64,000 bases of DNA from Pseudobutyrivibrio ruminis AD2017. Its GTDB lineage: Bacteria > Bacillota > Clostridia > Lachnospirales > Lachnospiraceae. Numbering within the stretch: position 1 is the first letter of the stretch; every line of letters begins with the position of its first letter. Of this stretch, positions 22,330-51,665 are shown in pieces. The DNA lies in NCBI RefSeq assembly GCF_000424305.1, contig NZ_AUJQ01000004.1:186001-250000 (forward strand). The letters are read 5' to 3'. A program made the position numbers and the translations under genes. The notes beneath the pieces are model-generated. The model had not been told where the DNA came from. It was given only the letters and a program-made list of their open reading frames with translations, and searched no databases.

Positions 22330-22920
22330 TTATTCGTCTGCTGGCTTAATACCAACTGATGGCCAAATCTCTTTGCCATCTGCATTGCGGATAACAATAC
22401 CTGGATGATAGTTTCTTGTACATACTGCAACTGCACCCTTGTTAGGGCCCTTCTGTCCAGCTGTGAAATCGTATACGCTGTATACGTTTGTGTCATGCCA
22501 GATAGCGTAGTTGTATGTAGGCATTGATCTTGTTGTACCTGACTCAGCCATATGGTTAGCATAGTACATATAGTAAGCTACAATATCATCACCAAACTTC
22601 TCTGATAAATCAGGATTAAGTGTTGCGTATGCGTTGACATTGAATGCTTCTGATGGCTGTCTCTGCTCCCAGATACCAAATGTTACAAAGTGAGTATATA
22701 ATGCCATTTCATCCTCACCGAGTTCCTTTACTACATCTGGATACATCTTTGCATAAACCTTAGCATTGAATGTCTTGTAGATTGTAGTAACTTCTTCTGC
22801 TGTAAGTACTCTTCTGTGAGCCTCTCCTGCTGCTGACATTGCGTTTGCATTAACAGTAAATACTGAAACTGAAAGAACTACTGCAATAGCAAGTGATAAA
22901 AATTTTGTAACTCTTTTCAT
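22330..22920 (-). CDS. Small secreted protein with two NPD-type repeats
   Basis: 196 aa. The signal peptide is clear (KRVTKFLSLAIAVVLSVSVF followed by VNANAMSAAG, cut likely after ANA). Two imperfect repeats of about 38 residues follow: YAKMYPDVVKELGEDEMALY with THFVTFGIWEQRQP, then YATLNPDLSEKFGDDIVAYY with MYYANHMAESGTTR. Repeats of this Y-x3-NPDL/V-x3-FG-x-D-x4-Y-x-H/Y-x4-G type occur in secreted proteins of Lachnospiraceae; I know of no assigned function. The C-terminus (YNYAIWHDTNVYSVYDF) is unrecognised. I chose ATG 22920, six bases after AAAGGTG, over the GTG at 22929. It has its own promoter and terminator, so it is an independent unit inside the island. Confidence 0.75.
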   Translation of the reverse strand: MKRVTKFLSLAIAVVLSVSVFTVNANAMSAAGEAHRRVLTAEEVTTIYKTFNAKVYAKMYPDVVKELGEDEMALYTHFVTFGIWEQRQPSEAFNVNAYATLNPDLSEKFGDDIVAYYMYYANHMAESGTTRSMPTYNYAIWHDTNVYSVYDFTAGQKGPNKGAVAVCTRNYHPGIVIRNADGKEIWPSVGIKPADE

Positions 22921-23050: not shown

Positions 23051-24010
23051 TTAAACAATACCCGCACCAAGTATTGCCTGCATTCTGATAGTACCTACTA
23101 CCTTGCCGTCCTTCATGACAGGAAGACATGCAATATTCTTTTCCTTCATGATTGAAAGAGCTTCGTATGCAAGCTTGCCGCTCTCTATTGTCTTAGGGCT
23201 AGAAGTCATAGCTTCCTTAGCAGACATTTCGTAAACCTTTGCTTCGTTTCTAAGCATTCTACGAAGGTCACCTTCTGTAATTACACCCTTAAGATTTCCT
23301 TCATCATCTACAAGTGAAACAAGGCCTAAGCCCTTGTTGCTAAGTTCGATGATAGCTTCCTTCAAAGATACATCTACAGAAATAACTGCGTTCTTTTCAC
23401 CCTCATCCATAAGATCGTTAACACGATAAATAAGCTTCTTTCCAAGTGCTCCGGCTGGATGGAACTTACCAAAATCAGCATCCTTAAATCCATAAACACC
23501 GCTGGCTACAACTGCAAGCGCATCGCCATAGCAAAGCGCTACTGTTGTGCTGGATGTTGGTGCAAGACCTAAGTAACAAGCCTCCTCAAAATCAGGAAGA
23601 ACCTGAACTATATCCGATGCCTCTGCAAGTGTAGACTCACCATTTCCTGTGATACCAATAAGCTTTGCGCCGATTAGCTTGATAGTAGGAAGAATCTTAA
23701 CGATTTCATCGCTTTCTCCACTGAAGGAAATAGCGATTACCACATCATCCTTTGAAACCATTCCAAGGTCACCGTGCATTGCCTCTGCTGGATGCAGGAA
23801 GAATGAAGGTGTGCCAAGGCTTGAGAATGTGGCTGCAAGCTTTTCTCCTATGTGTCCTGGCTTACCCATACCTGTGATGATGACTTTACCTGTGCAGCTG
23901 ATTACTTCACGTAAGATAGCTTCGAATTCACCATCGAGGGAATCACGTGTTTTTTCTAAGGCTGCTATTTCGATGTCGAAAACGCGTTTTGCTTCTTTAA
24001 TTATGTTCAT
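23051..24010 (-). CDS. kpsF: KpsF/GutQ-type arabinose-5-phosphate isomerase (SIS + two CBS)
   Basis: 319 aa, the usual KdsD/KpsF/GutQ length. The SIS domain comes first (TGMGKPGHIGEKLAATFSSL near 47-66, AISFSGESDEIVK, APTSSTTVALCYGDALA), then FGKFHPAGALGKKL, then two CBS domains (residues about 200-319). These enzymes interconvert ribulose-5-phosphate and arabinose-5-phosphate, the precursor of Kdo. No KdsA, KdsC or lipid A context is present in the window. The gene starts inside the end of the aldolase gene (14-base overlap), after AAGGAAT. It is the last gene of the tight aldolase and CMP-synthetase set, so its product probably feeds that pathway. Family assignment is firm; the in vivo substrate is inferred. 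Confidence 0.9.
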   Translation of the reverse strand: MNIIKEAKRVFDIEIAALEKTRDSLDGEFEAILREVISCTGKVIITGMGKPGHIGEKLAATFSSLGTPSFFLHPAEAMHGDLGMVSKDDVVIAISFSGESDEIVKILPTIKLIGAKLIGITGNGESTLAEASDIVQVLPDFEEACYLGLAPTSSTTVALCYGDALAVVASGVYGFKDADFGKFHPAGALGKKLIYRVNDLMDEGEKNAVISVDVSLKEAIIELSNKGLGLVSLVDDEGNLKGVITEGDLRRMLRNEAKVYEMSAKEAMTSSPKTIESGKLAYEALSIMKEKNIACLPVMKDGKVVGTIRMQAILGAGIV

Positions 24011-25010
24011 TTTTATATTCCTTATAAAGTTTTTCGATGTATTCTTCGTTGTAGTATTCAGCTTCGCTGTGGTCTACGCGGGAGAGGATGACATCGATGT
24101 CACGCATTGTAAGGTCACCCTTGTTCATGAGGAACTCAGGGTATGTACGATGTAAATCGTAGTATGCACTCATGGCGTATGGAAGCTTGAAGCCCCAACC
24201 GTACTTCTTATGAAGTGGTTCAATGTATTCGCTGATTGCATCATAGATTGCAGGAATGTTATATCCCTGGTCGAACTTGTAGTTCATGTATTCAGCAATC
24301 TGCTCCATCTTAAGGTTTCCTGGATCACGGCCCATTCCGATGAGGGAACCATCAATAACGTATTTACGTTCTGGATAGCTCTTTTCGATAGCACGCTGTG
24401 CCATAGCAAAAGCAAGTCCAAGGTTCTCGTGTAAGTGAATACCAATCTGGATATCCTTATCAAGGTGCTCATTTACGAGAATAAATCTCTTTTCAAAATC
24501 CTCAAGACGCATGTTTCCGAAAGTATCTACCATAGAAAATACTGTAGGATGTACTTCGTTAACGCGCTTGATTACGTTGATATATTCTTCATCCGTATAT
24601 ACGGTACAGTTAACTGGGTTCATAGAAACCTGATAGCCCTTCTTAAGAAGCTCTCTTGCTGTATCGCAAGCCCAGTCAAGCAAATGTCTCTTGAAGATAA
24701 CACGTACATATTTGATAGTGCCATCACACTCTTCAATATGGTCTAAAAGATTTTGCTTTTCTACCATTACAGAAATAGTTGAATTTCCTAAATCCTTTGG
24801 AAGGATACGCTTAACATCCTCCATAGAATAGAATCTTGTGTAATCTGTTGAAAGTGGTGTATCCCACATAAATCCCACTTCAATAATATCTACCTTCGCC
24901 TCAACTAATTTTTCGATTGTACCTGTGATAGTCTTTTCACCATAATTACCCCCAGTGATGTGACCACCATCTCTAAGTGTACAGTCTAATAAACGGTATT
25001 GGTTGTTCAT
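23997..25010 (-). CDS. DRE-TIM metallolyase (HMGL-like, pyruvate-aldolase type)
   Basis: 337 aa. The signature LLDCTLRDGGHITGG near residues 7-21 gives the catalytic Arg and metal Asp of the DRE-TIM superfamily, and IGIHLHENLGLAFA near 200 gives the HxH metal ligands. Length and motifs resemble 4-hydroxy-2-oxovalerate aldolases (DmpG/BphI) more than isopropylmalate synthases, as no C-terminal regulatory domain is present. Such class II aldolases condense pyruvate with an aldehyde. It begins one base after the stop of the CMP-synthetase gene, with AAAGG before the ATG, and overlaps the isomerase gene. A role in forming a 2-keto-3-deoxy sugar acid is inferred from these partners. Confidence 0.75.
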   Translation of the reverse strand: MNNQYRLLDCTLRDGGHITGGNYGEKTITGTIEKLVEAKVDIIEVGFMWDTPLSTDYTRFYSMEDVKRILPKDLGNSTISVMVEKQNLLDHIEECDGTIKYVRVIFKRHLLDWACDTARELLKKGYQVSMNPVNCTVYTDEEYINVIKRVNEVHPTVFSMVDTFGNMRLEDFEKRFILVNEHLDKDIQIGIHLHENLGLAFAMAQRAIEKSYPERKYVIDGSLIGMGRDPGNLKMEQIAEYMNYKFDQGYNIPAIYDAISEYIEPLHKKYGWGFKLPYAMSAYYDLHRTYPEFLMNKGDLTMRDIDVILSRVDHSEAEYYNEEYIEKLYKEYKNEHN

Positions 25011-25011
25011 T

Positions 25012-25680
25012 TTAATTACCTTTCTTTAACTGATTCATGTAGATAGCGTTTGCAATCTCAAAATCCTCAGCATAATCAATATCTACTGCTTCTATTTCCT
25101 CAACCTCGCACATGTAAGGATTCTCAGATGTACGAGAATGATTTCTCATAAATGACTCTCTATTGAAAACAAATGTTGATGTTGTTTCGATATAGAATGG
25201 CTCCATATCCTGTGTACGTGGTGGGTTATACAAATCAAAGTTAAGTGGCTTGCCACCCTTCCAAAAGAATGTCTGCATCTTCTTTGCAGTAAATGCAGAT
25301 TCGTACTCACCGCTCTTTACATGGTCTACACAATCCTTAATATGTTCTACTGTAACAAGAGGTGTAGTAACATGCTCAAGCAAATATACATCAGCCTCAA
25401 TAGTCTTTACAAACTCCTCATAAATAAGGCGTCCCTTTGTAGTCTTCTCATCCAAAAACTTAGGACGCTGTAAAAACTGCACGCCCTCTGGAAGATATGG
25501 GATGATTGCCTCATCTGAGCAATATACATAAATCTCATCTACTGTCTTATCTTCCTTAAGCTGTACAAGCTTCTTTAAAACCACATTAATAAGTGGAGTG
25601 CCATCGCCAAACTGCTTAATGTTTTTGCCTGGCAATCTCTCATTATTCAACTTAATAGGAACAAAAGCTACTGTCTTCAT
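25012..25680 (-). CDS. CMP-sugar-acid synthetase (acylneuraminate cytidylyltransferase family)
   Basis: 222 aa. The N-terminus AFVPIKLNNERLPGKNIKQF replaces the usual PARGGSKG-type loop but keeps the R-x-PGKN nucleotide-binding motif. LLEHVTTPLVTVEHI and EAVDIDYAEDFEIANAI (C-terminal metal-binding DIDxxxDF) are typical of NeuA/KdsB relatives. The start is ATG 25680 after TAGGAG; the longer frame to 25716 falls inside a hairpin element. It should activate a 2-keto sugar acid as a CMP derivative. It belongs to the set with the aldolase and the KpsF-type isomerase and is distinct from the NeuA-like gene at 43.6 kb. Confidence 0.85.
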   Translation of the reverse strand: MKTVAFVPIKLNNERLPGKNIKQFGDGTPLINVVLKKLVQLKEDKTVDEIYVYCSDEAIIPYLPEGVQFLQRPKFLDEKTTKGRLIYEEFVKTIEADVYLLEHVTTPLVTVEHIKDCVDHVKSGEYESAFTAKKMQTFFWKGGKPLNFDLYNPPRTQDMEPFYIETTSTFVFNRESFMRNHSRTSENPYMCEVEEIEAVDIDYAEDFEIANAIYMNQLKKGN

Positions 25681-25708
25681 ATAAACTCCTAATCCGCCAG
25701 TTACGGCA

Positions 25709-25796
25709 ACAAGCATTATATTTCTACACTCATCTAAGAATGATTCGCTTAAGAAATATAATAGCTTGTTACCTACTAGCTCATTTAAATTTTATA
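25709..25796 (-). repeat. Long hairpin element with AAATTTAA tail, copy A
   Basis: Arms 25709-25725 and 25752-25770 pair as AACAAGC(T)ATTATATTTCT with one bulge. On the minus strand the element starts with TATAAAATTTAAATGA directly at the stop of the upstream glycosyltransferase gene. The same layout and the shared ATAATAGCTTGTTA and tail sequences occur at 58.2 kb. It fills the gap between the two genes. Confidence 0.7.
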
Positions 25797-27210
25797 AAAA
25801 CTGATTTATAAACGATGTTATGTTACGCATAGCATCTGGTTCAAACATGCCGTCTGGGTCTACATGACCGGCACCGCCAGAACGAATAAGTTCTATTACC
25901 TGCTCAGCTGTATCTACAAGCGGTACATGTTTTTCTTTTATAAAATACTCCATATTTATCGCTGTGTCACCAAAATTCAACAAAATGGTGTCGCAACCAA
26001 AACCTATGCCTTCCCAAACAGATGCTGTACGGGCGCTTACTACTATAGCACTTTCAGCAAGATATCTAAAGATGTGCTCGCCGTTGTTTGCGATAACCTC
26101 AAGCTTGTCTGTATTTGTCCAAGGATATTTTTCCTTGTAGCTTGCAAATTCAAAAGGATGCAACTTATAGATTACTCTATATTCATCTCCGATAAGTTCC
26201 GCAACCTTTGCTGCCACCTTACTTATTTCTTCACCTTCGTTTAGTGTAGAAATGAAGCAAATGGTCTTTTCCTGCTTAGGATAAAGGCTCTGATAATGAT
26301 CGCGCTGCTTTTCAAAAAACGGAAATCCCACTGTAAGCATCTGTATGTTATCCGGAAGATGAACTATTGGAAGCTGTGTCTTGCTGTAAATCAGTTCATA
26401 ATCAGGCAGCTCATTCAAATGATCCTCAGGGTTATACTGCATCGGTGTATGAGTTGGAAATGCAAACCCGTGGCTATATTCTGCCACTGGAATGCCTCTT
26501 TCATGAGCTAACATGCTCATAGCATAGCTTTCCATAGCATAGTAACAGATTTCGATAATAAGCTTTGGCTTAGCCTTATCCAAAATCTTGCCGCAGAACT
26601 TTTTAGTGATGTCGATGTAGTACATTCTATCTACCACTTCAGAAATCATATCTGCTGCTATATCTGTACCAAATTCAGCCTTTACAGCCTCAAATATAGG
26701 TATCAGCGCTTCTGTAACCTGAGCTGTTCTGCGCTGTCTTGTTTTTGTGTTAAACTTCTTAGAAAGCTTTACTGCAAGGTTAGTCTTGAATGCCACCCTA
26801 TCTGTGAAATACACGTTATCCATGCCATTTGGCTGCATATGTCCGTGGTTTTCTGGGTGTTCTAGGATAACACTGTTGTACTTTTTGGCTACCTCATCAC
26901 AATAGATATCTTCATAGATACCTGTATCTATGTTTTTGGTTCTTCTGCCGTTTCCTACAAAAAGTACATCTACATTCTTATATGTGAATGGCTTAAGGGC
27001 ATTTAATGCCATGGTGAAGAGTTCCTTTTTTGTGAATGGGGCTTCTCCGTTACCACTGCCGCCTTTAGTGCCATAATATTTCTTTTTTATTGCATTATGG
27101 ATTTCATAACGATAGAGGGCCCACACGTGCATGCCCTCTACTATTATCTGGTTACATTTATGTTCCTGCTCGAAGGCCAGGAAGTTTTGTATTGTTGGTT
27201 CTTTATTCAT
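25792..27210 (-). CDS. GT-B glycosyltransferase with HP motif, possible CMP-ulosonate user
   Basis: 472 aa. I see VDVLFVGNGRRTKN, GIPVAEYSHGFAFPTHTP, MLTVGFPFFEKQ, ICFISTLNEGEEIS, then VIYKLHPFEF and IVVSARTASVWEG. The KLHP and the later S/T-rich motif are placed as in bacterial sialyl-, polysialyl- and Kdo-transferases, where HP and SS/ST motifs bind the CMP-sugar. The next gene makes a CMP-sugar, which fits. No membrane spans are seen, so it is likely peripheral at the cytoplasmic face. I chose ATG 27210 over GTG 27222; neither has a good ribosome site, and both overlap the preceding GT2. Family assignment is tentative. Confidence 0.55.
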   Translation of the reverse strand: MNKEPTIQNFLAFEQEHKCNQIIVEGMHVWALYRYEIHNAIKKKYYGTKGGSGNGEAPFTKKELFTMALNALKPFTYKNVDVLFVGNGRRTKNIDTGIYEDIYCDEVAKKYNSVILEHPENHGHMQPNGMDNVYFTDRVAFKTNLAVKLSKKFNTKTRQRRTAQVTEALIPIFEAVKAEFGTDIAADMISEVVDRMYYIDITKKFCGKILDKAKPKLIIEICYYAMESYAMSMLAHERGIPVAEYSHGFAFPTHTPMQYNPEDHLNELPDYELIYSKTQLPIVHLPDNIQMLTVGFPFFEKQRDHYQSLYPKQEKTICFISTLNEGEEISKVAAKVAELIGDEYRVIYKLHPFEFASYKEKYPWTNTDKLEVIANNGEHIFRYLAESAIVVSARTASVWEGIGFGCDTILLNFGDTAINMEYFIKEKHVPLVDTAEQVIELIRSGGAGHVDPDGMFEPDAMRNITSFINQFL

Positions 27211-32310: not shown

Positions 32311-33513
32311 TTAACTCCTTGAATTGTAAATATCTAAATAGCCTTTGTACATTACACTATTATCATAATGCTCTACTGCAAACTTGCGAATTTCATCACT
32401 GGTAAGCCCCTTAGCAAGCTGAGCATCGATTGCAGCTTTTAAAGAGATAAGGGCGTTATCATCGTTTGCAACAAATGTACCATAAGGCTGTGGCGCTGTT
32501 TCCTTTGTACCACATTCATCAAGTCCAACTACAGGGGTACCACAGCACACTGCTTCCACACATGTGGTAGGGAAGTTTTCTGCCTTGCTGCAAATGATAA
32601 ATACATTTGCCTCGGAGTACCACTTAGCAAGTTCGTCCTGATTTTTGGTTCTACTAATAAGCTGTACGTTACTATCTATTCTTTTGGTTTCGTCAGCTCC
32701 CACTAAAACAAACTGGGTATCAGGCATAGTCTTGGCCAAATCCAAAACCATTTGACCGCCCTTTCTTACATCCATGATATTAGGGGCTACAGCAAGAACC
32801 AATCTGTCATCCTCACCTATACCAAATGTTTTGCGAAGCTCCACATCCTTTGGTCTAGGATAAAAGATTCCTGATGTATCTATTCCGTTATTAATAACGT
32901 TTATACGATAATGACCTAAATAGGTTTCTTTTGTTTTATCAGCCAACCATTTAGATGGTGTGACGATTGATTTTATATTAAGCCCAGCCATAGCTGCCTT
33001 TTTGTCTGAAAGCATCTGGGCAGTTTTATCTATTCCAAATGAACTTACATATTCACGCAGATATGGGCAGTTGCCACATCCTGTTTTGTAGCCCTGGCAT
33101 TCATATGCAAATCCACATTTTCCTGTGTACATATATTCACAATGGAAGGTCCACACAATTGGAATCTGCTTTTGTCTAAGATAATCAAGCAGCTCCAAAT
33201 GGTTTACAAAATACGCATGCAATTCATGTATATGAATAAGGTCAGGCTTGAACTCTTCTATATACTGAATCAAACGCTTGGTAGACTTTGGCGAATAATA
33301 ACCATTCTTTCCTGTGATTCTTGCAAGCAATGCATGCTTTTTTGTTTCGGAATCTATTCCGAATTTGTAAATACCTAGTTCATCTATAACATCTCCACGG
33401 CCGTAGGCGATTCTGGCTTCATGCCCATCAGCATTAAGCCTATTGTATAAATCGTATACTATCTTGCCAGTGGAGCTGTATTTGCAGTTTACATCTATAA
33501 GTAATATTTTCAT
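32311..33513 (-). CDS. Family 4 glycosyltransferase (WcaC-like) with Cys cluster
   Basis: 400 aa, GT-B. N-terminus ILLIDVNCKYSSTGKIVYDL, then IHIHELHAYFVN and WTFHCEYMYTGKCGFAYEC with CGNCPYL, a four-Cys cluster near 130-155. I have seen this in WcaC/Eps-type GT4 enzymes, and it could bind zinc. The donor domain has NGIDTSGIFYP, VAPNIMDVRKGG and CSKAENFPTTCVEAVCCGTP (E-x7-E-like). It shares a 4-base ATGA overlap with the HisF-like gene. Donor and acceptor are unknown. Confidence 0.85.
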   Translation of the reverse strand: MKILLIDVNCKYSSTGKIVYDLYNRLNADGHEARIAYGRGDVIDELGIYKFGIDSETKKHALLARITGKNGYYSPKSTKRLIQYIEEFKPDLIHIHELHAYFVNHLELLDYLRQKQIPIVWTFHCEYMYTGKCGFAYECQGYKTGCGNCPYLREYVSSFGIDKTAQMLSDKKAAMAGLNIKSIVTPSKWLADKTKETYLGHYRINVINNGIDTSGIFYPRPKDVELRKTFGIGEDDRLVLAVAPNIMDVRKGGQMVLDLAKTMPDTQFVLVGADETKRIDSNVQLISRTKNQDELAKWYSEANVFIICSKAENFPTTCVEAVCCGTPVVGLDECGTKETAPQPYGTFVANDDNALISLKAAIDAQLAKGLTSDEIRKFAVEHYDNSVMYKGYLDIYNSRS

Positions 33514-34280
33514 TCTGTGTATATTCCCGCTTCTGTAAGCTCCTGCTCTGTAGGTGCTGTGATAAGTACAGCCTTTAATCTGCCGTAATATACAAACATG
33601 CTACCGCCTGCTGCTGCATGAGCATGTCCGTTTTGAAGTGCATCCTTAAGGTCTGATATTGAACCTGCGCCACCGCAAGCTGTAACAGGAATATCTACGG
33701 CATTAACAACCTGGTTGATTAGTTCTGTATCATAGCCTGTCATCATTCCATCTCTGTCGATGCTGTTAAGGAAGATTTCACCAACACCAAGCTCAGCTGC
33801 ATGCTTTGCAAGCTCTACAGGAGTCATGTCGATAACCTTAGTGCCATCGCAGATAACACATTTATACTGGCCCTTAACAAGCTTTGCATCAATAGATGCC
33901 ACAACTGACTGAGAACCTGCAAGTGCTACTGCATCCTTAACAAGCTGTTCATCCTCAACAAGGCTTGTATTCAAAACAACCTTCTCATAGCCGATTGCAA
34001 GAAGCTTACGAACCTGCTCAAGTGTCTTGATTCCACCGCCATAAGATAATGGCATGAATGCTTCAGATGCCATATCTGTAAGCAGCTCAAAATCTGGCTC
34101 GATTCCCTTTTTGCTGGCAGATATATCTAATACTGCCATCTCATCGATACCCTTACGATTAAAAATCTTAAGAGCATTTACTGGGTCTCCCAGATATGTT
34201 GGCTTTTTAAAATTAATTGTTTTTATTAAATCCCTGTCATCAATAAGAAGAACTGGGATGATTCTTGGTCTATTAAACAT
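33510..34280 (-). CDS. hisF: HisF-like ammonia-using subunit of sugar amidotransfer system
   Basis: 256 aa, TIM barrel of the HisF type: PVLLIDDRDLIKT (catalytic Asp), LSYGGGIKTLEQVRKL, FLNSIDRDGMMTGYD (second catalytic Asp) and VTACGGAGSISDL. Here it stands with HisH and a WbpG-type protein and no other histidine genes. That matches the HisF2/WbuZ subset that channels ammonia for sugar acetamidino formation rather than histidine synthesis. AGAGGT precedes ATG 34280. The three-gene order WbpG, HisH, HisF is the same as in known surface-glycan loci. Confidence 0.88.
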   Translation of the reverse strand: MFNRPRIIPVLLIDDRDLIKTINFKKPTYLGDPVNALKIFNRKGIDEMAVLDISASKKGIEPDFELLTDMASEAFMPLSYGGGIKTLEQVRKLLAIGYEKVVLNTSLVEDEQLVKDAVALAGSQSVVASIDAKLVKGQYKCVICDGTKVIDMTPVELAKHAAELGVGEIFLNSIDRDGMMTGYDTELINQVVNAVDIPVTACGGAGSISDLKDALQNGHAHAAAGGSMFVYYGRLKAVLITAPTEQELTEAGIYTE

Positions 34281-42472: not shown

Positions 42473-43620
42473 TCATTTCTTCTTCTGTTTTTAAAGTATT
42501 TGAAATCGTAGCTCTGCATATCCTGCTGCAACATCCAAATAAACACATAGAATATACTTACATATACTGGTCCGATAAGGCTAGCAAGTAAATAACGGAT
42601 TCCGTAGATTCTTCTGTGATATACACACATCATTGCCCATATCAACACTGTAAGTATTGGGATAAATAATACTGCTAAAGATGTAAGTGAGCTAACGCCT
42701 ATTGATACTGCTGCAATAGGAAGCATGTATGCAGTCTTAATATCCTTTCTATATAGCCTTGTCAAATAAAGCATAAAGAATGGAACTGCGATTACGGAAA
42801 GTACTGCCTTCCCCTGCCAGATAGCACCTAGCAATCTGAATGTAGATGAATAATGTGAGTACAATCCAAAAATATATCCGACAGAAAGAACTATAAGAAA
42901 AATCAATCTGTCCTCAAGCTTATTAAACAGAAAGCTTGCCATATAATAAAAATTAAAATAGGCAATCAATAATAATAGCACTGGCAAAATAGTATGATAC
43001 ACAGTTGTTACTTCAAATCCTGATGTTGAAGACAGCATTGCCACATAGGTTCCCCAAGAAGCAACTGCTCTTTTCTCCTGAACATTAGGAATTGTGCCGT
43101 CAATATAATTAACGCAGGAAAGTGTATCTGTTTCTATTGTATCCTTGCTGGTAACTACGTAATCATAATCATCATAAGACCATTCATTGATTTCGTAACC
43201 AAATGCCATGTATAACTGCAAGGCAAGCAAGCCTGCAAAAAGTATCGCATATACGATAGTAAACTTATCCTCTTTGGTCTGTTCCTTGACTGATGCTATT
43301 TTAAAGCGCATCTTGTTAAAAGGTCTTTTGAGCTTATTTCTATCGACCCATATCCAGCCAAGCACAAGGATAACCATTACTACAGCATAGGCCTTTAGTA
43401 GCATTGTATAAGCACCATGCAGTGGATCATTTAATGTACACCAATTTTGAATCCACTCAATTATGGTGTATAAAATGTAAAAGATTGCCAGATTACCGAA
43501 GAAACCTACCAGATAATCGGCAATCCAATTAGTCCTTGCCCTATATGTAATTAGTCTGCCCACGGCTATTGGCAACAATGTAAAGTGCAATAGGAAGGCC
43601 AATGCTCTAATTAATATCAT
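42448..43620 (-). CDS. DUF6077-type membrane protein, likely 5' half of a split gene
   Basis: 390 aa, about nine membrane spans. A first external loop has NEWSYDDYDYVVTSKDTI near residue 145, the acidic site expected in GT-C-like proteins, followed by RAVASWGTYVAMLSS. It stops in NRRRNEWWLQWFH, where hydrophobic spans would be expected to continue, and the next frame starts in the middle of membrane spans. The ATG overlaps the upstream CMP-synthetase stop as TAATG. It may still be made as a truncated protein. Confidence 0.65.
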   Translation of the reverse strand: MILIRALAFLLHFTLLPIAVGRLITYRARTNWIADYLVGFFGNLAIFYILYTIIEWIQNWCTLNDPLHGAYTMLLKAYAVVMVILVLGWIWVDRNKLKRPFNKMRFKIASVKEQTKEDKFTIVYAILFAGLLALQLYMAFGYEINEWSYDDYDYVVTSKDTIETDTLSCVNYIDGTIPNVQEKRAVASWGTYVAMLSSTSGFEVTTVYHTILPVLLLLIAYFNFYYMASFLFNKLEDRLIFLIVLSVGYIFGLYSHYSSTFRLLGAIWQGKAVLSVIAVPFFMLYLTRLYRKDIKTAYMLPIAAVSIGVSSLTSLAVLFIPILTVLIWAMMCVYHRRIYGIRYLLASLIGPVYVSIFYVFIWMLQQDMQSYDFKYFKNRRRNEWWLQWFH

Positions 43621-44321
43621 TAGTTAATTCCTAATTTCTTTTTCATCATAAATTCTGCGATTTCGAAATCGATTGGATAATCAATATCGATTGAGTCTGC
43701 TCTGCTCATAATGTAAGCATAAGTGTTATCGCAGTAGTAAGTGCGCTGCTCCTTAAGAAGCTTGTAATCCAAAATATAGATTGCACCGTTTGGGATATAG
43801 TATGTAGCGTTTGTCTGGCGGTTAGCTACGTTAGAGCCCTTAGCGCCAAAGCCTGCATTTTTGATACGGCCCTGTTCGTCCATGGTGTGATACCAACCTA
43901 CTGGACATTCTGCCTCTGTAAACGAGATAAGTGTTGTGGCACCGTCATGCTCAAACTGCTCGATAGCTTCGTTGATGTTATTCTCATCACGAAGTGGAGC
44001 TGTTGGAAGAAGTACCATGAACTTCTCAACAGGCTTGCCTGTTTCGTTTGCTACAAATTCTGCTGCGTGAAGATATACATCTACAGCTGATGCTGTATCG
44101 CTGGCAAGCTCAGCTGGACGCATGAATGGAACCTCTGCGCCAGCTTCACGTGCAACACGTGCTATGTCTTCGTCATCTGTTGTAACGATGACTCTGTCTA
44201 TTTTATCTGCTTTTAAGGCAGCCTGGATTGTGTGAGCAATCAGAGGCTTGCCGCAGATTTCTTTTATGTTTTTGCCTGGGACGCCTTTTGAGCCGCCTCT
44301 GGCTGGTATAAATGCTATCAT
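43620..44321 (-). CDS. neuA: CMP-nonulosonate synthetase (NeuA/LegF/PseF family)
   Basis: 233 aa. The N-terminus is IAFIPARGGSKGVPGKNIKE, the full NeuA nucleotide loop. LLPTAPLRDENNINEAI and a C-terminal DSIDIDYPIDFEIAEFMM metal-binding motif follow. It activates the nonulosonic acid made by the NeuB-like enzyme encoded just upstream. ATG 44321 is preferred over 44333, which lies inside the double-hairpin repeat. The repeat's GAGGTGG is the ribosome site. Given LegB, LegC and the PtmE-like enzyme nearby, legionaminic-type sugar is the likely substrate, but sialic or pseudaminic acid cannot be excluded by sequence reading. Confidence 0.9.
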   Translation of the reverse strand: MIAFIPARGGSKGVPGKNIKEICGKPLIAHTIQAALKADKIDRVIVTTDDEDIARVAREAGAEVPFMRPAELASDTASAVDVYLHAAEFVANETGKPVEKFMVLLPTAPLRDENNINEAIEQFEHDGATTLISFTEAECPVGWYHTMDEQGRIKNAGFGAKGSNVANRQTNATYYIPNGAIYILDYKLLKEQRTYYCDNTYAYIMSRADSIDIDYPIDFEIAEFMMKKKLGIN

Positions 44322-44327
44322 TTTCCA

Positions 44328-44372
44328 CCTCATCAGTCAGCTACGCTGACAGCTTCCCCTCAAGGGGAAGCC
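44328..44372 (-). repeat. Double-hairpin intergenic repeat, copy 5
   Basis: Stem 1 is GTCAGC-TAC-GCTGAC and stem 2 is the shortened GCTTCCCC-TCAA-GGGGAAGC, one pair lost on both sides. It lies between neuB and neuA and carries the neuA ribosome site. Confidence 0.85.
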
Positions 44373-44378
44373 TTTTAT

Positions 44379-45428
44379 TTATAAATCTGTCCACTGAAGA
44401 ATATCATCATACTTTACATCATGATTTAATGTGCGGCCAAGAACCATTTCGTAGTACTTTGGTGAGATTCCTATGCCTGGGCGCTTGTAGTCAAGATCAT
44501 CCATTGTAAGTACGTGGCCTGCTGGCATGTCGTGCTTAGCAACGATAGAACGCTTGAATTCCTCGCGGCGCTTCTCGTCCTCAACTACTACCTTGCGATA
44601 GCTTCCGAGCATGTTGTAACCACTTCTTGCAGCGTCACAGATAGCCTTAAGCTCTGCTGGGTCTGCACTAACCTTGTGATCCCAGCCTTCCATGTTCTTA
44701 TCCATTGTGAAATGCTTTTCAATGATGCAAGCATTCTTTGCAATACTCATGATTGGTGCAACAGTGCCGATTGTATGATCAGAATATCCAACTGGGTAAT
44801 CAAATACCATGTTGTACATATCCATGTTGTTAAGGTTAACGATTTCATCTGTTGGTGGGTACATAGATACGCAGTGAAGGATTGCGATTTCGTGGCATCC
44901 ACCTTCCTCAAGTGCCTGGATAGCTGCGCATACATCATCCATGCCTGTAAGACCTGTAGAGATAACAACAGGAACACCCTTGCTACCTACGTGCTTTAAG
45001 AATGGAATGTTCTCAACATCAAGAGATGCAATCTTAAGGAATGGTACATGAAGCTCATCAACAAGCATATCTGCTCCTGCCATAGAAAATGGTGTAGAAC
45101 AGAAGTCGATGTCTAACTCATCGCAGTACTTCTTAAGCTCGATGTGCTGTTCCTTAGATACAGCATATTTTTCCATAATAGACTTAAGAGTGTAATCTGT
45201 ACGGTTACGATAATCATCTCCAAGGAAATAGTTATCTTCGTACTTCTTCTTAGAGAAGAGGTCATCTACTGTCCAAGACTGAAGCTTAACAGCGTCAGCA
45301 CCGCACTCCTTTGCTGTCTTTATAAGTGTTTTAGCTAAATCCATATCACCATTGTGGTTAGCACCAAGCTCTGCTATGATGTATGGTCTTTGATTTCCAG
45401 CAACTAAATCTGCATAATTAAATCTCAT
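44379..45428 (-). CDS. neuB: Nonulosonic acid synthase (NeuB/LegI family)
   Basis: 349 aa. The TIM-barrel NeuB domain has PYIIAELGANHNGDMDLAKT, ADAVKLQSWTVDDLF, FCSTPFSMAGADML, VISTGLTGMDDV, LHCVSMYPPTDEIVNL, GYSDHTIG and IIEKHFTMDKNMEGWDH. A C-terminal SAF/antifreeze-like domain (SIVAKHDMPAGHVLTMDDL) follows. The enzyme condenses PEP with an amino-hexose to give a nine-carbon 2-keto acid. ATG 45428 follows GGAGGA, while the frame's earlier start at 45509 would add 27 unrelated residues. It overlaps the upstream GT2 by 11 bases. Substrate type (Leg, Pse or Neu) is inferred as Leg from the flanking genes. Confidence 0.92.
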   Translation of the reverse strand: MRFNYADLVAGNQRPYIIAELGANHNGDMDLAKTLIKTAKECGADAVKLQSWTVDDLFSKKKYEDNYFLGDDYRNRTDYTLKSIMEKYAVSKEQHIELKKYCDELDIDFCSTPFSMAGADMLVDELHVPFLKIASLDVENIPFLKHVGSKGVPVVISTGLTGMDDVCAAIQALEEGGCHEIAILHCVSMYPPTDEIVNLNNMDMYNMVFDYPVGYSDHTIGTVAPIMSIAKNACIIEKHFTMDKNMEGWDHKVSADPAELKAICDAARSGYNMLGSYRKVVVEDEKRREEFKRSIVAKHDMPAGHVLTMDDLDYKRPGIGISPKYYEMVLGRTLNHDVKYDDILQWTDL

Positions 45429-46260
45429 ATGAATCCTCCATTTGAATATCACTCCACCAGTATCCCTGGTGATTATTTGAAAGCTTAAGATCAGTCTTAT
45501 CAACCTCACCCAGCTTAGCCTCTAAATATTTAAAGTAATCATACCTTTTAGCAAGATTACTGTAGTGAGTAGCTTTTACAGCATACTCCTTTGATAAATC
45601 TCTGGTAGTGCCTGCGGTGTTATCTTCATATATGCGATAAATGGTGTCTGCGTTATCAACGCAAGCGCCCTTACCAATATCAAGAATTATTCTGCTAAAC
45701 AAATACCAGTCAAAAACTGCTACTGCACCTTCATTAAGGCTGTCTATAAATTCCTCGCTAAGGCTTGTAAGCCTGATGCCTGTATTAGACAATCCAAGGA
45801 AGTTTCCCTGAGAAATATCCTTAATGTTTTCCACTGTCTTAGGTAAGGTTTTAAACACGTCCTCACCCTTTTCAGTAACGAACTTATTATAAAAGAATAC
45901 TTTGTCTTTGTCTAATTCAAAAGCCTGCTTGTAGCTGGCCATTCTGGATGGCGCAATAGTGTCATCGGCATCAACAAGAACTATGCTTTCATAGCCTAGG
46001 TTCTTAGCAGTTTTCAGCATTTCGATGCGAGTTCCGGCAATGCTTAGCTTCTTATCGCTAATATCCTCAATGTGGATATTGATGCCATGAACGGTATTTT
46101 GTATTTGTTTTTCTACTTCTACAAGCTCATCCTTTGTGTAATTGTCGTTAATTATCAACAGGTCGAAGTCCTTATTGGATTGGTTATCCACGGATGTTAG
46201 TAGGGCCTGTAGATAGGGGTGGGCTTGTTTGTAGATTACTGTGGATAATGCTGTCTTCAT
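45418..46260 (-). CDS. Family 2-like glycosyltransferase
   Basis: 280 aa. It has ALSTVIYKQAHPYLQALLTS, LLIINDNYTKDELVEV and SIVLVDADDTIAPSRMASY (DxD-type metal site near residue 100), with WYLFSRIILDIG further on. The GT-A core is degenerate at the usual N-terminal PTYN motif. A double-hairpin repeat ends just upstream, and its GAGGG is placed seven bases from ATG 46260. The ATG at 46266 is too close to it. Position next to neuB suggests a role in adding the nonulosonic acid or a neighbouring sugar; not provable here. Confidence 0.65.
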   Translation of the reverse strand: MKTALSTVIYKQAHPYLQALLTSVDNQSNKDFDLLIINDNYTKDELVEVEKQIQNTVHGINIHIEDISDKKLSIAGTRIEMLKTAKNLGYESIVLVDADDTIAPSRMASYKQAFELDKDKVFFYNKFVTEKGEDVFKTLPKTVENIKDISQGNFLGLSNTGIRLTSLSEEFIDSLNEGAVAVFDWYLFSRIILDIGKGACVDNADTIYRIYEDNTAGTTRDLSKEYAVKATHYSNLAKRYDYFKYLEAKLGEVDKTDLKLSNNHQGYWWSDIQMEDSYEI

Positions 46261-46267
46261 AATCATA

Positions 46268-46317
46268 CCCTCATCAGTCAGCTGCGCTGACAGCTTCTCC
46301 CTACTTAGGGAGAAGCC
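46268..46317 (-). repeat. Double-hairpin intergenic repeat, copy 6
   Basis: Stem 2 here is GCTTCTCCCT-ACTT-AGGGAGAAGC: a C to T change on one side is matched by G to A on the other. The copy encodes the last residues (ASP) and stop of the upstream GT4 protein and provides the ribosome site of the downstream GT2. Confidence 0.85.
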
Positions 46318-47507
46318 AAGTAGGTGTCCATGTAGTCCATTAGTTTTTTCTTGGAGAAGTGTTCCTTGTTGTAGGCTAAGGCGTTTTCTCCCATTTGTAG
46401 GCGAAATACTTCAGGGAGATTACGCATGGCTATGATGTTCATAGCTAATGCTCTGGCATCTCCAATATCTGAGCACATACCGCATTTTGCTTCTACAATA
46501 ACTCTTTCTGTTTCGCCCTTGGCTGAGGCAATAATTGGCATTGCACATGCCATGTATGACTGAAGCTTGGCAGGGATTGTCTTTGCGAACAATTCATCAT
46601 CTGCAAATGAAATAAATGCTGCATCACCTTTGGCTAAAAGTGCAGGAACCTCTGTTGGTTTTACTCTTCCTGCGAACTCGAAAAGATCCCAAACGCCTTC
46701 GGCTGTGATACTTTCCTTGAAGCTTTCTCTGGCTCTTCCATCTCCAACTATGGTGAATCGGATATCCTTAACACCTTCGTTTCTGATGATGGCTGCTGCC
46801 TTTGGTAATATCTCTAGTCCCTGTGCCTGACCTATGTTTCCTGTGAATATTACATTAAAGCCTTTATGCTCAACCTTTTCCTTTGGCTCGTAGAATTCTT
46901 CAGCGTACTGAGGCCAGAAGCTTACCTTATCCTGCTCGTCCTCATCTACGTATTTACGAATTGAATCTACAAAGCTTGGGCTGGTTCCCCAGATGTGGTC
47001 GCAACCCTTATATATCTTTCTCACCATTCGCTCTATTGGCTTAACCATAAGTGGCGAATGAATGCCTGTAATCATTTCTACGTTTTCTGGCCATAAGTCC
47101 TGTACGTATAAGTAACATGGTACATGGTGTTTTTTAGCGTAGGCCACGCCTACCTTACATTGATTCATTGGTGATGTTTCAAACATGTAAACTTCATCAG
47201 CCTTAATACGTGTAAACATGTTCCAGAAAAATCCAAAAAATGGGAAGCTAAGATAATTTAGTACCAATCCAAGCTTGCCATTACCTCTTGGTATCAGCGG
47301 AATACGATGAATTTCTACACCATTTATTATTTCATGTCTCTTCTTAAAAAGGCCGTAGCCTTCGTATATTTTCCCCTCAGGATAATTAGGGAGGCCAGTT
47401 AAAACAGAAACCTTGTAGCCTCTTTTTACCCACTCAAATGCCATATCATTTATTCTGAACTGCTCAGGATAAAAATACTGGCATACTATCAATATATGTT
47501 TGTCCAT
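46305..47507 (-). CDS. Family 4 glycosyltransferase (WbuB-like)
   Basis: 400 aa. N-terminus ILIVCQYFYPEQFRINDMAF with GLPNYPEGKIYEGY, YVQDLWPENVEMITG and IWGTSPSFVDSI. The donor domain has VIFTGNIGQAQGLEILPKAA, FTIVGDGRARESFKE and KTIPAKLQSYMACAMPIIAS. These are the features of WbuB, reported as an L-FucNAc transferase in E. coli loci, and of related GT4 enzymes. The stop codon and last three residues lie in a double-hairpin repeat. It starts after a terminator-like hairpin; no strong ribosome site is seen (CGAGAACATAA). Confidence 0.85.
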   Translation of the reverse strand: MDKHILIVCQYFYPEQFRINDMAFEWVKRGYKVSVLTGLPNYPEGKIYEGYGLFKKRHEIINGVEIHRIPLIPRGNGKLGLVLNYLSFPFFGFFWNMFTRIKADEVYMFETSPMNQCKVGVAYAKKHHVPCYLYVQDLWPENVEMITGIHSPLMVKPIERMVRKIYKGCDHIWGTSPSFVDSIRKYVDEDEQDKVSFWPQYAEEFYEPKEKVEHKGFNVIFTGNIGQAQGLEILPKAAAIIRNEGVKDIRFTIVGDGRARESFKESITAEGVWDLFEFAGRVKPTEVPALLAKGDAAFISFADDELFAKTIPAKLQSYMACAMPIIASAKGETERVIVEAKCGMCSDIGDARALAMNIIAMRNLPEVFRLQMGENALAYNKEHFSKKKLMDYMDTYLASP

Positions 47508-47544
47508 TTATGTTCTCGAATCTATCTATATTTTTAAACGCACA

Positions 47545-47575
47545 AATATCGCCCATATACTTTGGGCGATATTTA
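47545..47575 (-). terminator. Terminator-like hairpin after the DUF2142 gene
   Basis: Perfect 11-pair stem AAATATCGCCC / GGGCGATATTT with a nine-base loop, two bases after the UAA at 47577. The run after the stem (GTGCGTTTAAAAA) is not a clean U-tract, so partial termination or mRNA-end protection is possible. It is symmetric and would work on either strand. Confidence 0.55.
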
Positions 47576-47576
47576 T

Positions 47577-49244
47577 TTACATTACGAATGGTGCTGGCAT
47601 TCCATCTCTCAAGTGGAAAAGGAAATGTAACAATCCACACATTGAGAAAATAAGCATAATGTTTTGAATATAAATCAGAGCCAACGCCAGCTTGTTTTCC
47701 TTGGCATCTGTTCCAAGTCCTATACACATGCACATGTATACAGGTATCAAATATCTAAATGAAATCTGAATTCTCTGACTTCCTTCTGCTGGAGTAAATC
47801 GTGTCATGCATCCAATGAAGATTGCTACTACACACAGCACAAGACCTAAGCCTAAAACAACCATCTGCCACTTTTTAATACGGTTACCCTTGATGAATAC
47901 CATACCTGCGAGTAAACAGATAAGCATAACGATAATGCAAACCCATGGCACTTCAGCGTTAAGCTTAATATGACCAAGCTCGCGACCAATAATGTGGTTG
48001 ATGTTGTACCAAAAATCTACCTTAATTCCGTCCCATGTAAACTTAAGCACCTCAAGCTTATGGTCTACAAAATATTCCCAGCTAAGTGCTTCTCTTGAAG
48101 TATCAGTTTCGATGGTATTTCCACTCCACTTCCAGAACACATTTACCATAATGAAATAGTAATACTTAGTAATAACCTTCTTGGCAACAACTACAACGCC
48201 AAGACCAAGTACTCCAAGAATCACATATTCGTACCACTTTTTAGAAAGCACTACGTCTGTCCACCATTTCTTAAGTGGGATAGCGAAGAACCATACTGCA
48301 AAAAGTGCATATACGATTTTGTTTGGAATAAGTATAACTACGCAGCCTGCAAGGATGATAATATCCCAAGCATGAAGCTTAACCTGTGGCTGACTATAAT
48401 ACAAAACAAGTGTAAATAAAGCTAATGAAAACAGGATACTCATGTTATCGTACGAGTATGAGCTACATATATGTAACACTCCTGGGAACAAAGCAAAAGT
48501 GAAAAACTGCTGTTTTCCAACAGGCAAAAGCTTAAGAGCAATATAGCCTGCAATTATAAGTGATAGGGAGTTAAAAAATCTTCCCATGAATATTACACCG
48601 GCAAAACCAAAACCTAAAAGTCTTGCCAAAGTAATACCTGCACCAGATACCAAATATCTGGATGCCTTTGATGGTGCTATTTTACATTCAACATTGCCCT
48701 GCATATCATCTGCATGCTTAAAGTAATTGCCCTGCGCCAATATTGCGTATTGATAAGGGAATGTAACATCCAGATATGGCATCATGTAATAATCTTCTGC
48801 ACGCATGTAAAAGAACGATTCATCCTGCACCCAGCTACCAAGCTTACTGGTATCCATGCTAAGGTTGTGATCCTTCATTCCAAGCATTATGTTAGAACAA
48901 TGATAAGCACTGTAATAATGCTGAACTTCATCTGGTCCTGAAATAGGTGGCATAACAAGCTGCATACAGAATGTCCAGCCGATAGCCATGATTACGAATA
49001 ATCTTGGATAAGACCAGTCCTTGTTCTTTACAAGCATCCTTGTAAGATAAACTGTAAGTGCAATCATTACGATGAAGATGATTGCAAAATATGCATTATA
49101 TCTTTTTGTTGATGTCAAATTAACACAATTTGTAAAGAAAAAAACAAGCGCTGCAACGATGCTTACTGCAGCAACTGCCACAGCTCCTATTTGAAATCCC
49201 TTTTCTTTATTCATGTCTGAAAAATATGACTTAATTTTTTCCAC
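47577..49244 (-). CDS. DUF2142-type polytopic membrane protein, GT-C-like
   Basis: 555 aa, about thirteen spans. The motif PPISGPDEVQHYYSAYHCSN near residue 105 is the first-loop signature of DUF2142 proteins, followed by ARLLGFGFAGVIFMGRFFNS and CSSYSYDNMSILFSLALF. DUF2142 proteins resemble GT-C glycosyltransferases and are found in wall-polysaccharide loci. The start is GTG 49244 with AAAGGG eight bases upstream. It is followed by a strong hairpin, so it may be the last gene of the unit that starts at the 55.7-kb promoter. Confidence 0.8.
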   Translation of the reverse strand: MEKIKSYFSDMNKEKGFQIGAVAVAAVSIVAALVFFFTNCVNLTSTKRYNAYFAIIFIVMIALTVYLTRMLVKNKDWSYPRLFVIMAIGWTFCMQLVMPPISGPDEVQHYYSAYHCSNIMLGMKDHNLSMDTSKLGSWVQDESFFYMRAEDYYMMPYLDVTFPYQYAILAQGNYFKHADDMQGNVECKIAPSKASRYLVSGAGITLARLLGFGFAGVIFMGRFFNSLSLIIAGYIALKLLPVGKQQFFTFALFPGVLHICSSYSYDNMSILFSLALFTLVLYYSQPQVKLHAWDIIILAGCVVILIPNKIVYALFAVWFFAIPLKKWWTDVVLSKKWYEYVILGVLGLGVVVVAKKVITKYYYFIMVNVFWKWSGNTIETDTSREALSWEYFVDHKLEVLKFTWDGIKVDFWYNINHIIGRELGHIKLNAEVPWVCIIVMLICLLAGMVFIKGNRIKKWQMVVLGLGLVLCVVAIFIGCMTRFTPAEGSQRIQISFRYLIPVYMCMCIGLGTDAKENKLALALIYIQNIMLIFSMCGLLHFLFHLRDGMPAPFVM

Positions 49245-49266
49245 TATTAATCCCTTTCAAGCAATC

Positions 49267-50307
49267 TTATCTGCCTGCAAGTCTACGTTCCATCTTGCTA
49301 AGCTCATCCAGCTGGCCCATGTCCATCCATGTGTTTTCGTTGATTGGATAAACGCCAACTTTTTTGCCGTCGTCCTTAAGTCTGTTAATGATATCTGGGA
49401 AGCCGATGAATTCGCCGTCCTTGATATAATCAATAACCTCTGGTTCAACTATATAAATACCAGTGTTTGTGAAGAAGCTAAACTCTGGTTTTTCTTTCAT
49501 GTCTAAGATATTTCCATGCTCTCCAAACTCTACCACGCCATAAGCCACCTGGAAGTTTCTAAGGGAGCATACCATAGTAATCAGATTACCCTCTTTTTTA
49601 TGATGTTCATAAATCTTTGAGTAATCCTCTTCAATTAAGATATCGCAATTAGTAAGGATAAATGTCTCATCAATCTTGCCTCTTAAAAGGGCAAGGCCGC
49701 CTCCTGTACCAAGAGGCTTATCCTCATCCACAAAATCAATACTATAAGGTCTCTCAGCCTCGCCAAAATAAGACTTAATCATATTCTTCTTATGATTAAC
49801 AATCATTATCATTCTATCAATTCCATAATCTGCAAAGCTATCCATGATAAGCTCTGCGATAGGCTTCTCGCCTACTGGAATAAGTGGCTTTGGAAGAATT
49901 CTTGTGTATGGATAAAGCCTTGTACCCTTGCCACCTGCCATCATAACAACAGGGGTACTAAGGGTAGAATGCTTTTTATAATGATTCTCACTCCAGAAGA
50001 CTGTATCAATTACATGGCCTTCGTCATCTACAATTGGAAGTCCTTCTATGTTGTGACGATAGAGGAAGTTACGTGCATCTTCTTTTTCTTCTTCCTTCAA
50101 GCTTCTAGGCTTGTAATTTGCTATAGATTTTACAGGTTCGTTTAAATCTCCACCTGATAAAATGTATCTACGAACATCTCCCTCTGAAAGAGCTGCCAAC
50201 AGCTTATTGTCATCATCAACAATAAAAACTGTGCGGCGGCTGCTAGCATCAAATGTTCGCATCGCATGTAAAATTGTGTCATCTTCCTTTATGAATACAT
50301 TTTCCAT
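49267..50307 (-). CDS. ptmE: CBS-domain sugar-1-phosphate nucleotidyltransferase (PtmE-like)
   Basis: 346 aa. Two CBS repeats come first (residues about 1-115: RTVFIVDDDNKLLAALSEGD, GLPIVDDEGHVIDTV). A NTP_transferase domain follows, with VMMAGGKGTRLYPYTRILPK, PLIPVGEKPIAELIMD, DEDKPLGTGGGLALLRGK and FILTNCDILIEEDYS. This CBS plus nucleotidyltransferase fusion matches PtmE of Campylobacter, which makes GDP-glucosamine for the legionaminic acid route. LegB and LegC are encoded directly upstream, which supports the same role. GGAG precedes the ATG. Nucleotide choice (GDP) is inferred from the family. Confidence 0.88.
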   Translation of the reverse strand: MENVFIKEDDTILHAMRTFDASSRRTVFIVDDDNKLLAALSEGDVRRYILSGGDLNEPVKSIANYKPRSLKEEEKEDARNFLYRHNIEGLPIVDDEGHVIDTVFWSENHYKKHSTLSTPVVMMAGGKGTRLYPYTRILPKPLIPVGEKPIAELIMDSFADYGIDRMIMIVNHKKNMIKSYFGEAERPYSIDFVDEDKPLGTGGGLALLRGKIDETFILTNCDILIEEDYSKIYEHHKKEGNLITMVCSLRNFQVAYGVVEFGEHGNILDMKEKPEFSFFTNTGIYIVEPEVIDYIKDGEFIGFPDIINRLKDDGKKVGVYPINENTWMDMGQLDELSKMERRLAGR

Positions 50308-50313
50308 AATAAT

Positions 50314-51480: not shown

Positions 51481-51504
51481 TTCTCTACCTCTAATCCGAT
51501 GAAC

Positions 51505-51660
51505 CATAAGCCATATACACATGCAACGACACGCTTTCGCTCTGCTTGCCCTCGTTGCGTTACGTAAGATGCTCCTTTCAGGACCATCTAAGTAACGACG
51601 GGGCAAGAAGGTCTTATGCATGTGTATATGTCTTATGCTCCATCTCACTTAAATTTTATA
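51505..51660 (-). repeat. Large nested palindromic element between legB and legC
   Basis: Outer arms 51505-51525 and 51617-51637 (CATAAGCCATATACACATGCA, one mismatch after pairing) enclose a second stem. That stem is CTTGCCC and CGTTGCGTTAC at 51545-51563 against GTAACGACG and GGGCAAG at 51592-51607. Inside is a small AGATG/CATCT hairpin with TCCT-TTC-AGGA. The left end carries the TCACTTAAATTTTAT tail (plus strand) shared with the elements at 25.7 and 58.2 kb. Confidence 0.75.
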
Positions 51661-51665
51661 GTTAA

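Follow-up and report, generated by a model that had tools for sequence, protein, structure and literature searches.

The window examined here is a 64,000-nucleotide stretch of the Pseudobutyrivibrio ruminis AD2017 genome (C3:186001-250000 of a 2.9 Mb genome with 99.83% completeness), and our subject is a four-gene module within it that probably makes and transfers a sugar acid of the 3-deoxy-manno-octulosonate (Kdo) type. An earlier note on this DNA described four tightly packed genes, and their open reading frames (ORFs) were confirmed on the minus strand (Table 1). The gap between GTx and CTPT is 75 bp if the longest CTPT ORF is taken and 111 bp from the likely start at 25680, which has an AGGAG site and gives a product of 222 residues, as in four relatives; CTPT and ALD are separated by 1 bp, and ALD shares 14 bp with KpsF. 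A scan of genome contigs with ALD as the query returned five close Pseudobutyrivibrio loci (L032-L036; G and L labels denote sampled genomes and loci, G000 being P. ruminis AD2017 itself and G153 a congener). GTx, CTPT, ALD, and KpsF are co-located in all six loci, counting the window and the five found through ALD. In the most distant of these, L036 (ALD 69% identical), the order of KpsF and ALD is exchanged and the four-gene set is complete.

Table 1. Module genes and other features of the window discussed in the text.
Feature	Coordinates	Strand	Assignment and remarks
GTx	25792..27210	minus	Predicted glycosyltransferase of GT-B fold carrying an HP motif; start at 27222 in the longest ORF
CTPT	25012..25680	minus	Predicted CMP-sugar-acid synthetase of a subfamily flanking ALD or KdsA; start at 25716 in the longest ORF
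ALD	23997..25010	minus	DRE-TIM metal aldolase resembling 4-hydroxy-2-oxovalerate aldolases; proposed KdsA replacement
KpsF	23051..24010	minus	Predicted SIS-CBS-CBS arabinose-5-phosphate isomerase
Small protein	22330..22920	minus	Apparent signal peptide (by eye); directly 3' of the module in 6/6 Pseudobutyrivibrio loci
NeuB-type ORF	44379-45509		PF03102 over cut-off; TIGR03569 340.3 bits, below the equivalog cut-off of 399.65
LegB and LegC	50314-52643		Over NCBIfam cut-offs

ALD matches the Pfam family HMGL-like with 78.8 bits against a cut-off of 29, and its nearest chain in the PDB is 3dxi, a "putative aldolase," followed by 4-hydroxy-2-oxovalerate (HOA) aldolases. Residues R17, D18, H21, H200, and H202 of the HOA aldolase DmpG (1nvm), which we take to be catalytic, align to the identical residues R13, D14, H17, H192, and H194 of ALD, and 30 of the 31 columns that are invariant in 22 fused relatives (those with an additional C-terminal domain) are kept. 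These features liken ALD to the DmpG/BphI and 3dxi types of aldolase. It differs from HOA aldolases in scoring below their curated cut-offs (70.8 versus 286 for TIGR03217, and 80 versus 229 for NF006049) and in its setting, which is that of glycan operons encoding enzymes that activate sugar acids; no aldehyde dehydrogenase family was found among ten proteins scanned at 23-33.5 kb. Of 250 genomes sampled from the family of the window, 115 have a match to ALD at E≤0.001, and only three of 398 genomes in a phylum sample, our own among them, have one at E≤1e-30, so within these samples the ALD family is concentrated in Lachnospiraceae.

The enzyme that ALD would replace is absent. The TIGR01362 profile for KdsA had no match in the P. 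ruminis AD2017 genome, and the single PF00793 match there is an ORF of the DAHP-synthase family elsewhere. G153 (99% complete) likewise has no KdsA at E≤1e-60, its sole TIGR01362 match being weak and partial (E 4e-4). We considered whether a kdsA gene could be hidden by an assembly gap, and this was ruled out by the 99.83% completeness of our genome together with the absence of KdsA from G153. The kdsA-free co-occurrence of the four families, put forward as a check in the earlier note, holds in both genomes of the genus that were searched. Among the 250 family genomes, KpsF scores over its cut-off in six and KdsA in five; KdsA and KpsF adjoin in G184, G116, G103, and G022, and KpsF adjoins ALD in G000 and G153. 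In a survey of 43 genomes (42 bearing KpsF, plus G052, which has KdsA without a KpsF over cut-off), KdsA was found in 40, or 39 of the 42 that bear KpsF, the exceptions being G000, G153, and G614.

The synthetase CTPT, which matches Pfam CTP_transf_3 and has PpNeuA as its nearest PDB chain, links the ALD and KdsA loci. A search of 80 genomes, of which 57 have a strong ALD and 23 do not, found it at E≤1e-40 in 14. Thirteen of these have it beside ALD; the fourteenth, G022, belongs to the 23 without a strong ALD and carries CTPT-KdsA-KpsF-KdsC as a contiguous series. G103, which lies outside the 80, has the order CTPT-KdsA-KpsF, and KdsA is over cut-off in both genomes; in G184 and G116, a KdsB-like synthetase is followed, after one intervening gene, by KdsA and KpsF. 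The window reads CTPT-ALD-KpsF, and ALD thus fills the slot of KdsA between the same partners. In the CTPT tree, in which the outgroup branches are long, the two KdsA-linked members nest within the ALD-linked ones (97/97 for a 13-row group, 96/92 with L168 and L175 added).

KpsF scored 303.5 bits against TIGR00393 (cut-off 203.7) and has an SIS and two CBS domains; it is a predicted counterpart of the arabinose-5-phosphate isomerase of the canonical Kdo pathway. It falls short of the more stringent equivalog cut-offs for KdsD and GutQ, matches KdsD structures in the PDB, and keeps 50 of 51 columns that are invariant in 34 KpsFs from KdsA-bearing genomes. The KpsF tree places six ALD-linked members, four KdsA-linked members from Lachnospiraceae, and L134 in one set against 30 other members of the phylum (99/98), with long branches of L134 and L148 limiting the detail. 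ALD-linked and KdsA-linked members are interleaved within this set; L036 joins G103 at 91/80, short of strong support, so the ALD-linked KpsFs are not one clade. The two trees agree that CTPT and KpsF partners have been shared between ALD-type and KdsA-type loci, and the earlier suggestion of an aldolase in place of KdsA gains support from the same CTPT subfamily and KpsF flanking KdsA in G022 and G103 and ALD in the genus of the window. L134, the KpsF locus of G614, is itself glycan-like, and the gene adjoining KpsF there resembles a Cof-type HAD by eye.

The AlphaFold model of GTx (predicted local distance difference test score of 88.2) has a GT-B fold, and the HP motif noted earlier in this transferase is real, with K353, H355, P356, and E358 invariant in 14/14 aligned sequences. 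GTx is likely to be a CMP-ulosonate transferase, a reading drawn from the modeled fold, from the motif, and from NeuB lying near some of its relatives. GTx has no family-level sequence match to the known GT-B transferases of this kind, namely WaaA, polysialyltransferase, KpsC/KpsS, and the GT140 member KrkA (PMC12887879). No match was found in Pfam at 0.001 or in NCBIfam at 0.01, and only one of the 14 aligned sequences matched PF07388, at 0.0025; a GTx profile returned one chance-level row from PDB sequences, and hhalign against the Capsule_synth protein of the window (52636-54069) returned nothing. A fold search retrieved GT-B proteins in general, with UDP-GlcNAc 2-epimerase-like chains and MurG ranked at the top. 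Many unrelated GT-B rows equaled or bettered the CMP-ulosonate transferases in fold score; the rows seen included neither KpsC nor KrkA. Among GTx relatives in seven other genomes, four (L141-L144) have NeuB within about 7 kb, and none was found in L139, L140, and L145.

Besides the window and G153, ALD occurs at E<1e-39 in 60 further places, 62 in all, and the surroundings of these 60 were read. Sixteen of these 60 stretches stop before 7 kb on one side, so absences from them are soft. The ALD ORF exceeds 480 residues in 54 of the 60 loci. Within 7 kb of ALD, a CMP-sugar-acid synthetase (KdsB-like or CTPT-like) occurs in 29 loci and a thiamine diphosphate (ThDP) enzyme of the acetolactate-synthase type in 27, with both in one locus and neither in five; since CMP-ulosonate synthetases and ThDP enzymes both use 2-keto acids, ALD would be expected to make one. 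No KdsA, NeuB, or KpsF was found within 7 kb of ALD in the 60 loci. A KdsC-type phosphatase accompanies 11 of the 29 synthetase loci versus none of the 26 loci that have only a ThDP enzyme (Fisher p 0.00035, related loci being non-independent). A class of shorter and more distant ALDs, read at thirteen loci as controls, has neither a synthetase nor a ThDP enzyme beside it. One of the thirteen is a second ALD of our own genome (L057 9324-10301, or G000:C1:119323-120300) with no evident glycan context, and similar copies occur in the 12 other loci.

In the ALD tree, the clade of the window is sister to L037-L041 (support 100/98). A KdsB-like synthetase is found in all five of these sister loci (in L039 at a distance of 7.8 kb, seen by eye) and a KdsC-type HAD in four; in L037 and L041, the KdsC-type proteins are over the TIGR01670 cut-off and the synthetases over that of NF003952. 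Two plasmids of the alphaproteobacterium Leisingera carry consecutive genes for a fused ALD, a 3-deoxy-manno-octulosonate cytidylyltransferase, and a HAD. The one Leisingera synthetase scanned is over two KdsB subfamily cut-offs, and the HAD beside it has no NCBIfam match at 1e-20.

Gene content, the absence of kdsA, the alternation of ALD with KdsA, and the tree positions lead us to consider it likely that the four genes encode the synthesis and transfer of a CMP-activated, Kdo-type ulosonic acid, with KdsA replaced by ALD; the comparative support for this predicted role of ALD is strong. KpsF, judging by its family and conserved residues, would convert ribulose-5-phosphate to arabinose-5-phosphate, to which ALD, as a divalent-metal enzyme of the 4-hydroxy-2-oxovalerate aldolase type, would add pyruvate to give 3-deoxy-2-octulosonate-8-phosphate. 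The product is probably Kdo-8-phosphate or, if the stereochemistry differs, its C4 epimer. Dephosphorylation would be carried out in trans by a HAD phosphatase, perhaps the KdsC-type protein over the TIGR01670 cut-off that is encoded elsewhere in the genome, among neighbors that by eye resemble dapA and a transporter; KdsC had been described as missing, which is true of the operon but not of the genome. CTPT would then activate the acid with CTP, a role suggested by its family and by a relative in which it adjoins KdsA-KpsF-KdsC, and GTx would transfer the activated acid to a surface glycan.

Several observations weigh against this pathway. No NCBIfam model is over cut-off for CTPT, whose best KdsB score is 22.4 bits, so that a KdsB-type synthetase like that of the canonical pathway is not recognized in it, and none of the phosphatase types sought lies within 7 kb in any of the six loci of the window type. 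The nearest enzymes of known function to ALD, the HOA aldolases, act on small hydroxy-oxo acids. The joining of L036 to G103 in the KpsF tree, at 91/80, is not strongly supported, and G614 has KpsF with neither KdsA nor a nearby ALD, so KpsF without KdsA is not unique to ALD-linked genomes. About half of the ALD loci have a ThDP enzyme in place of a CMP synthetase. Finally, KpsF is present within 7 kb in 0/60 other ALD loci and over cut-off in only 6/250 family genomes; therefore, the aldehyde used across the family is not always arabinose-5-phosphate. The most probable alternative is that ALD adds pyruvate to another aldehyde (e.g., erythrose-4-phosphate, ribose-5-phosphate, or a hexose phosphate) or yields the C4 epimer, with CTPT activating a non-Kdo ulosonic acid and KpsF having a different role. 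The sister cassettes L037-L041 and those of Leisingera, which have ALD without an adjoining KpsF, would fit such a scheme, as would the KdsC-type HADs of L037 and L041, which score best with a KDN-9-phosphatase model (below its cut-off), and the failure of CTPT to exceed any KdsB cut-off. We nevertheless regard this alternative as unlikely, as KpsF lies in the operon in 6/6 loci of the window genus and the same CTPT subfamily accompanies a KdsA over cut-off in G022 and G103.

The earlier note also held that a phosphoenolpyruvate (PEP)-dependent synthase is missing, which is correct for KdsA throughout the genome; a NeuB-type gene, however, is present in the window (Table 1). It lies in a cluster at 43620-52643 that comprises a PseF-like CMP synthetase, the NeuB-type synthase, a CBS-nucleotidyltransferase, LegC, and LegB, which by its gene content is a separate legionaminic-type pathway. 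The genome has two NeuB-type genes in all, and about 1 kb before the second (L146, G000:C6:86000-105900) is a CTPT-like match with a stop. These two genes leave room for the view that the keto acid of the module comes from a PEP-dependent synthase elsewhere, such as a NeuB-type enzyme acting on arabinose-5-phosphate, and that ALD is a catabolic or side enzyme. We judge this to be quite improbable: the NeuB of the window is about 19 kb from ALD in its own context of LegB, LegC, and CMP synthetase, NeuB lies within 7 kb of 0/66 ALD loci (some stretches being short), and it is ALD, not NeuB, that alternates with KdsA between CTPT and KpsF. Least probable of all is that ALD performs another DRE-TIM reaction, such as an acyl-CoA Claisen condensation or lyase step decorating the glycan or a precursor, for although HMGL-like also covers LeuA and HMG-CoA lyase and LeuA-type models match ALD weakly, the functionally known proteins that it matches best are HOA aldolases, its motif is TLRDGGH versus TLRDGSH in DmpG where LeuA-type enzymes read DGEQ, and users of 2-keto acids adjoin ALD in 55/60 loci.

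In the wider family, the fused ALD adjoins a ThDP enzyme in 27/60 loci and RfbH in 12/60 (e.g., L054, L055, L158, L160, L164, L178-L181, L185), and an unfused ALD adjoins a ThDP enzyme in L059 and L061. NCBIfam models place RfbH of L054 over cut-off and its acetolactate-synthase-like ThDP enzyme under equivalog cut-offs. The C-terminal domain of the fused ALDs has no accepted Pfam family in nine proteins. VIA-align applied to Foldseek candidates gave it a likeness to GT42; Foldseek alone returned no match at E≤0.001, so this likeness depends on VIA-align, a further weakness of the overall scheme. Fused ALD, RfbH, and the ThDP enzyme could form a route to branched higher sugars built on CDP-4-keto-sugars. 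More tentatively than for the module itself, and with slightly more doubt than belief, we propose that ALD defines a pyruvate-dependent family of "2-keto-3-deoxy-sugar-acid synthases" serving surface glycans, which would have replaced KdsA in Kdo-type operons and would often be fused to a domain of sialyltransferase fold. Its products would go either to CMP-ulosonate synthetases or to ThDP enzymes, and the latter would decarboxylate the acid and join it to CDP-4-keto-sugars, giving branched higher sugars.

A comparison of the module with known systems shows both shared and distinct features. To our knowledge, the keto acid of activated Kdo and sialic-type acids comes from PEP, through KdsA- or NeuB-type synthases, in the routes described so far. 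Like the canonical CMP-Kdo pathway (KdsD/KpsF, KdsA, KdsC, KdsB), the module has a KpsF that groups with the KdsA-linked KpsFs of its family, a predicted CTP-dependent synthetase, and a layout that matches CTPT-KdsA-KpsF of G022 and G103; it differs in having an unrelated metal aldolase family for KdsA, an operon without KdsC, and a synthetase that scores under the KdsB models. With the NeuB-based nonulosonic (legionaminic) pathways it would share a 2-keto-3-deoxy acid, CMP activation, and a dedicated transferase, but its four genes include neither NeuB nor any aminosugar precursor gene.

Such a route had been put forward as new for a Gram-positive organism. A passage in PMC4744853 places kdsA, kdsB, kdsC, and kdsD on an island in the genome of the Gram-positive Bacillus coahuilensis; because kdsA was already reported there, the new part is the exchange of the synthase and not the presence of Kdo genes in a Gram-positive. 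In the open-licence PMC literature, judged by titles and the starts of abstracts among the matches listed (subscription journals and preprints being outside this scope), we found no report of an aldolase in the place of KdsA in the synthesis of Kdo or other ulosonates, and ALD in this slot appears to point to an unreported way of making Kdo-like sugars. If this is correct, a metal aldolase would provide a chemically different, reversible entry to CMP-ulosonic acids and a new aldolase for glycan chemists, and a function could be given to a widespread family whose members carry the name "aldolase catalytic domain-containing protein" in plasmid records. It would also draw attention to acidic Kdo-like sugars as components of the coats of Gram-positive bacteria of the gut and rumen, which annotation based on kdsA would overlook.

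Among the remaining genes, the small protein directly downstream of KpsF has no Pfam match at 1e-5 and may lie outside the pathway. L061 also encodes a protein that has an N-terminal domain like glycerol-3-phosphate cytidylyltransferase and looks by eye like a possible PEP mutase fusion. At 33510-34280, the glycan locus of the window encodes a His_biosynth (HisF-like) protein, reminiscent of the sets of sugar amidotransferase genes in other glycan loci.

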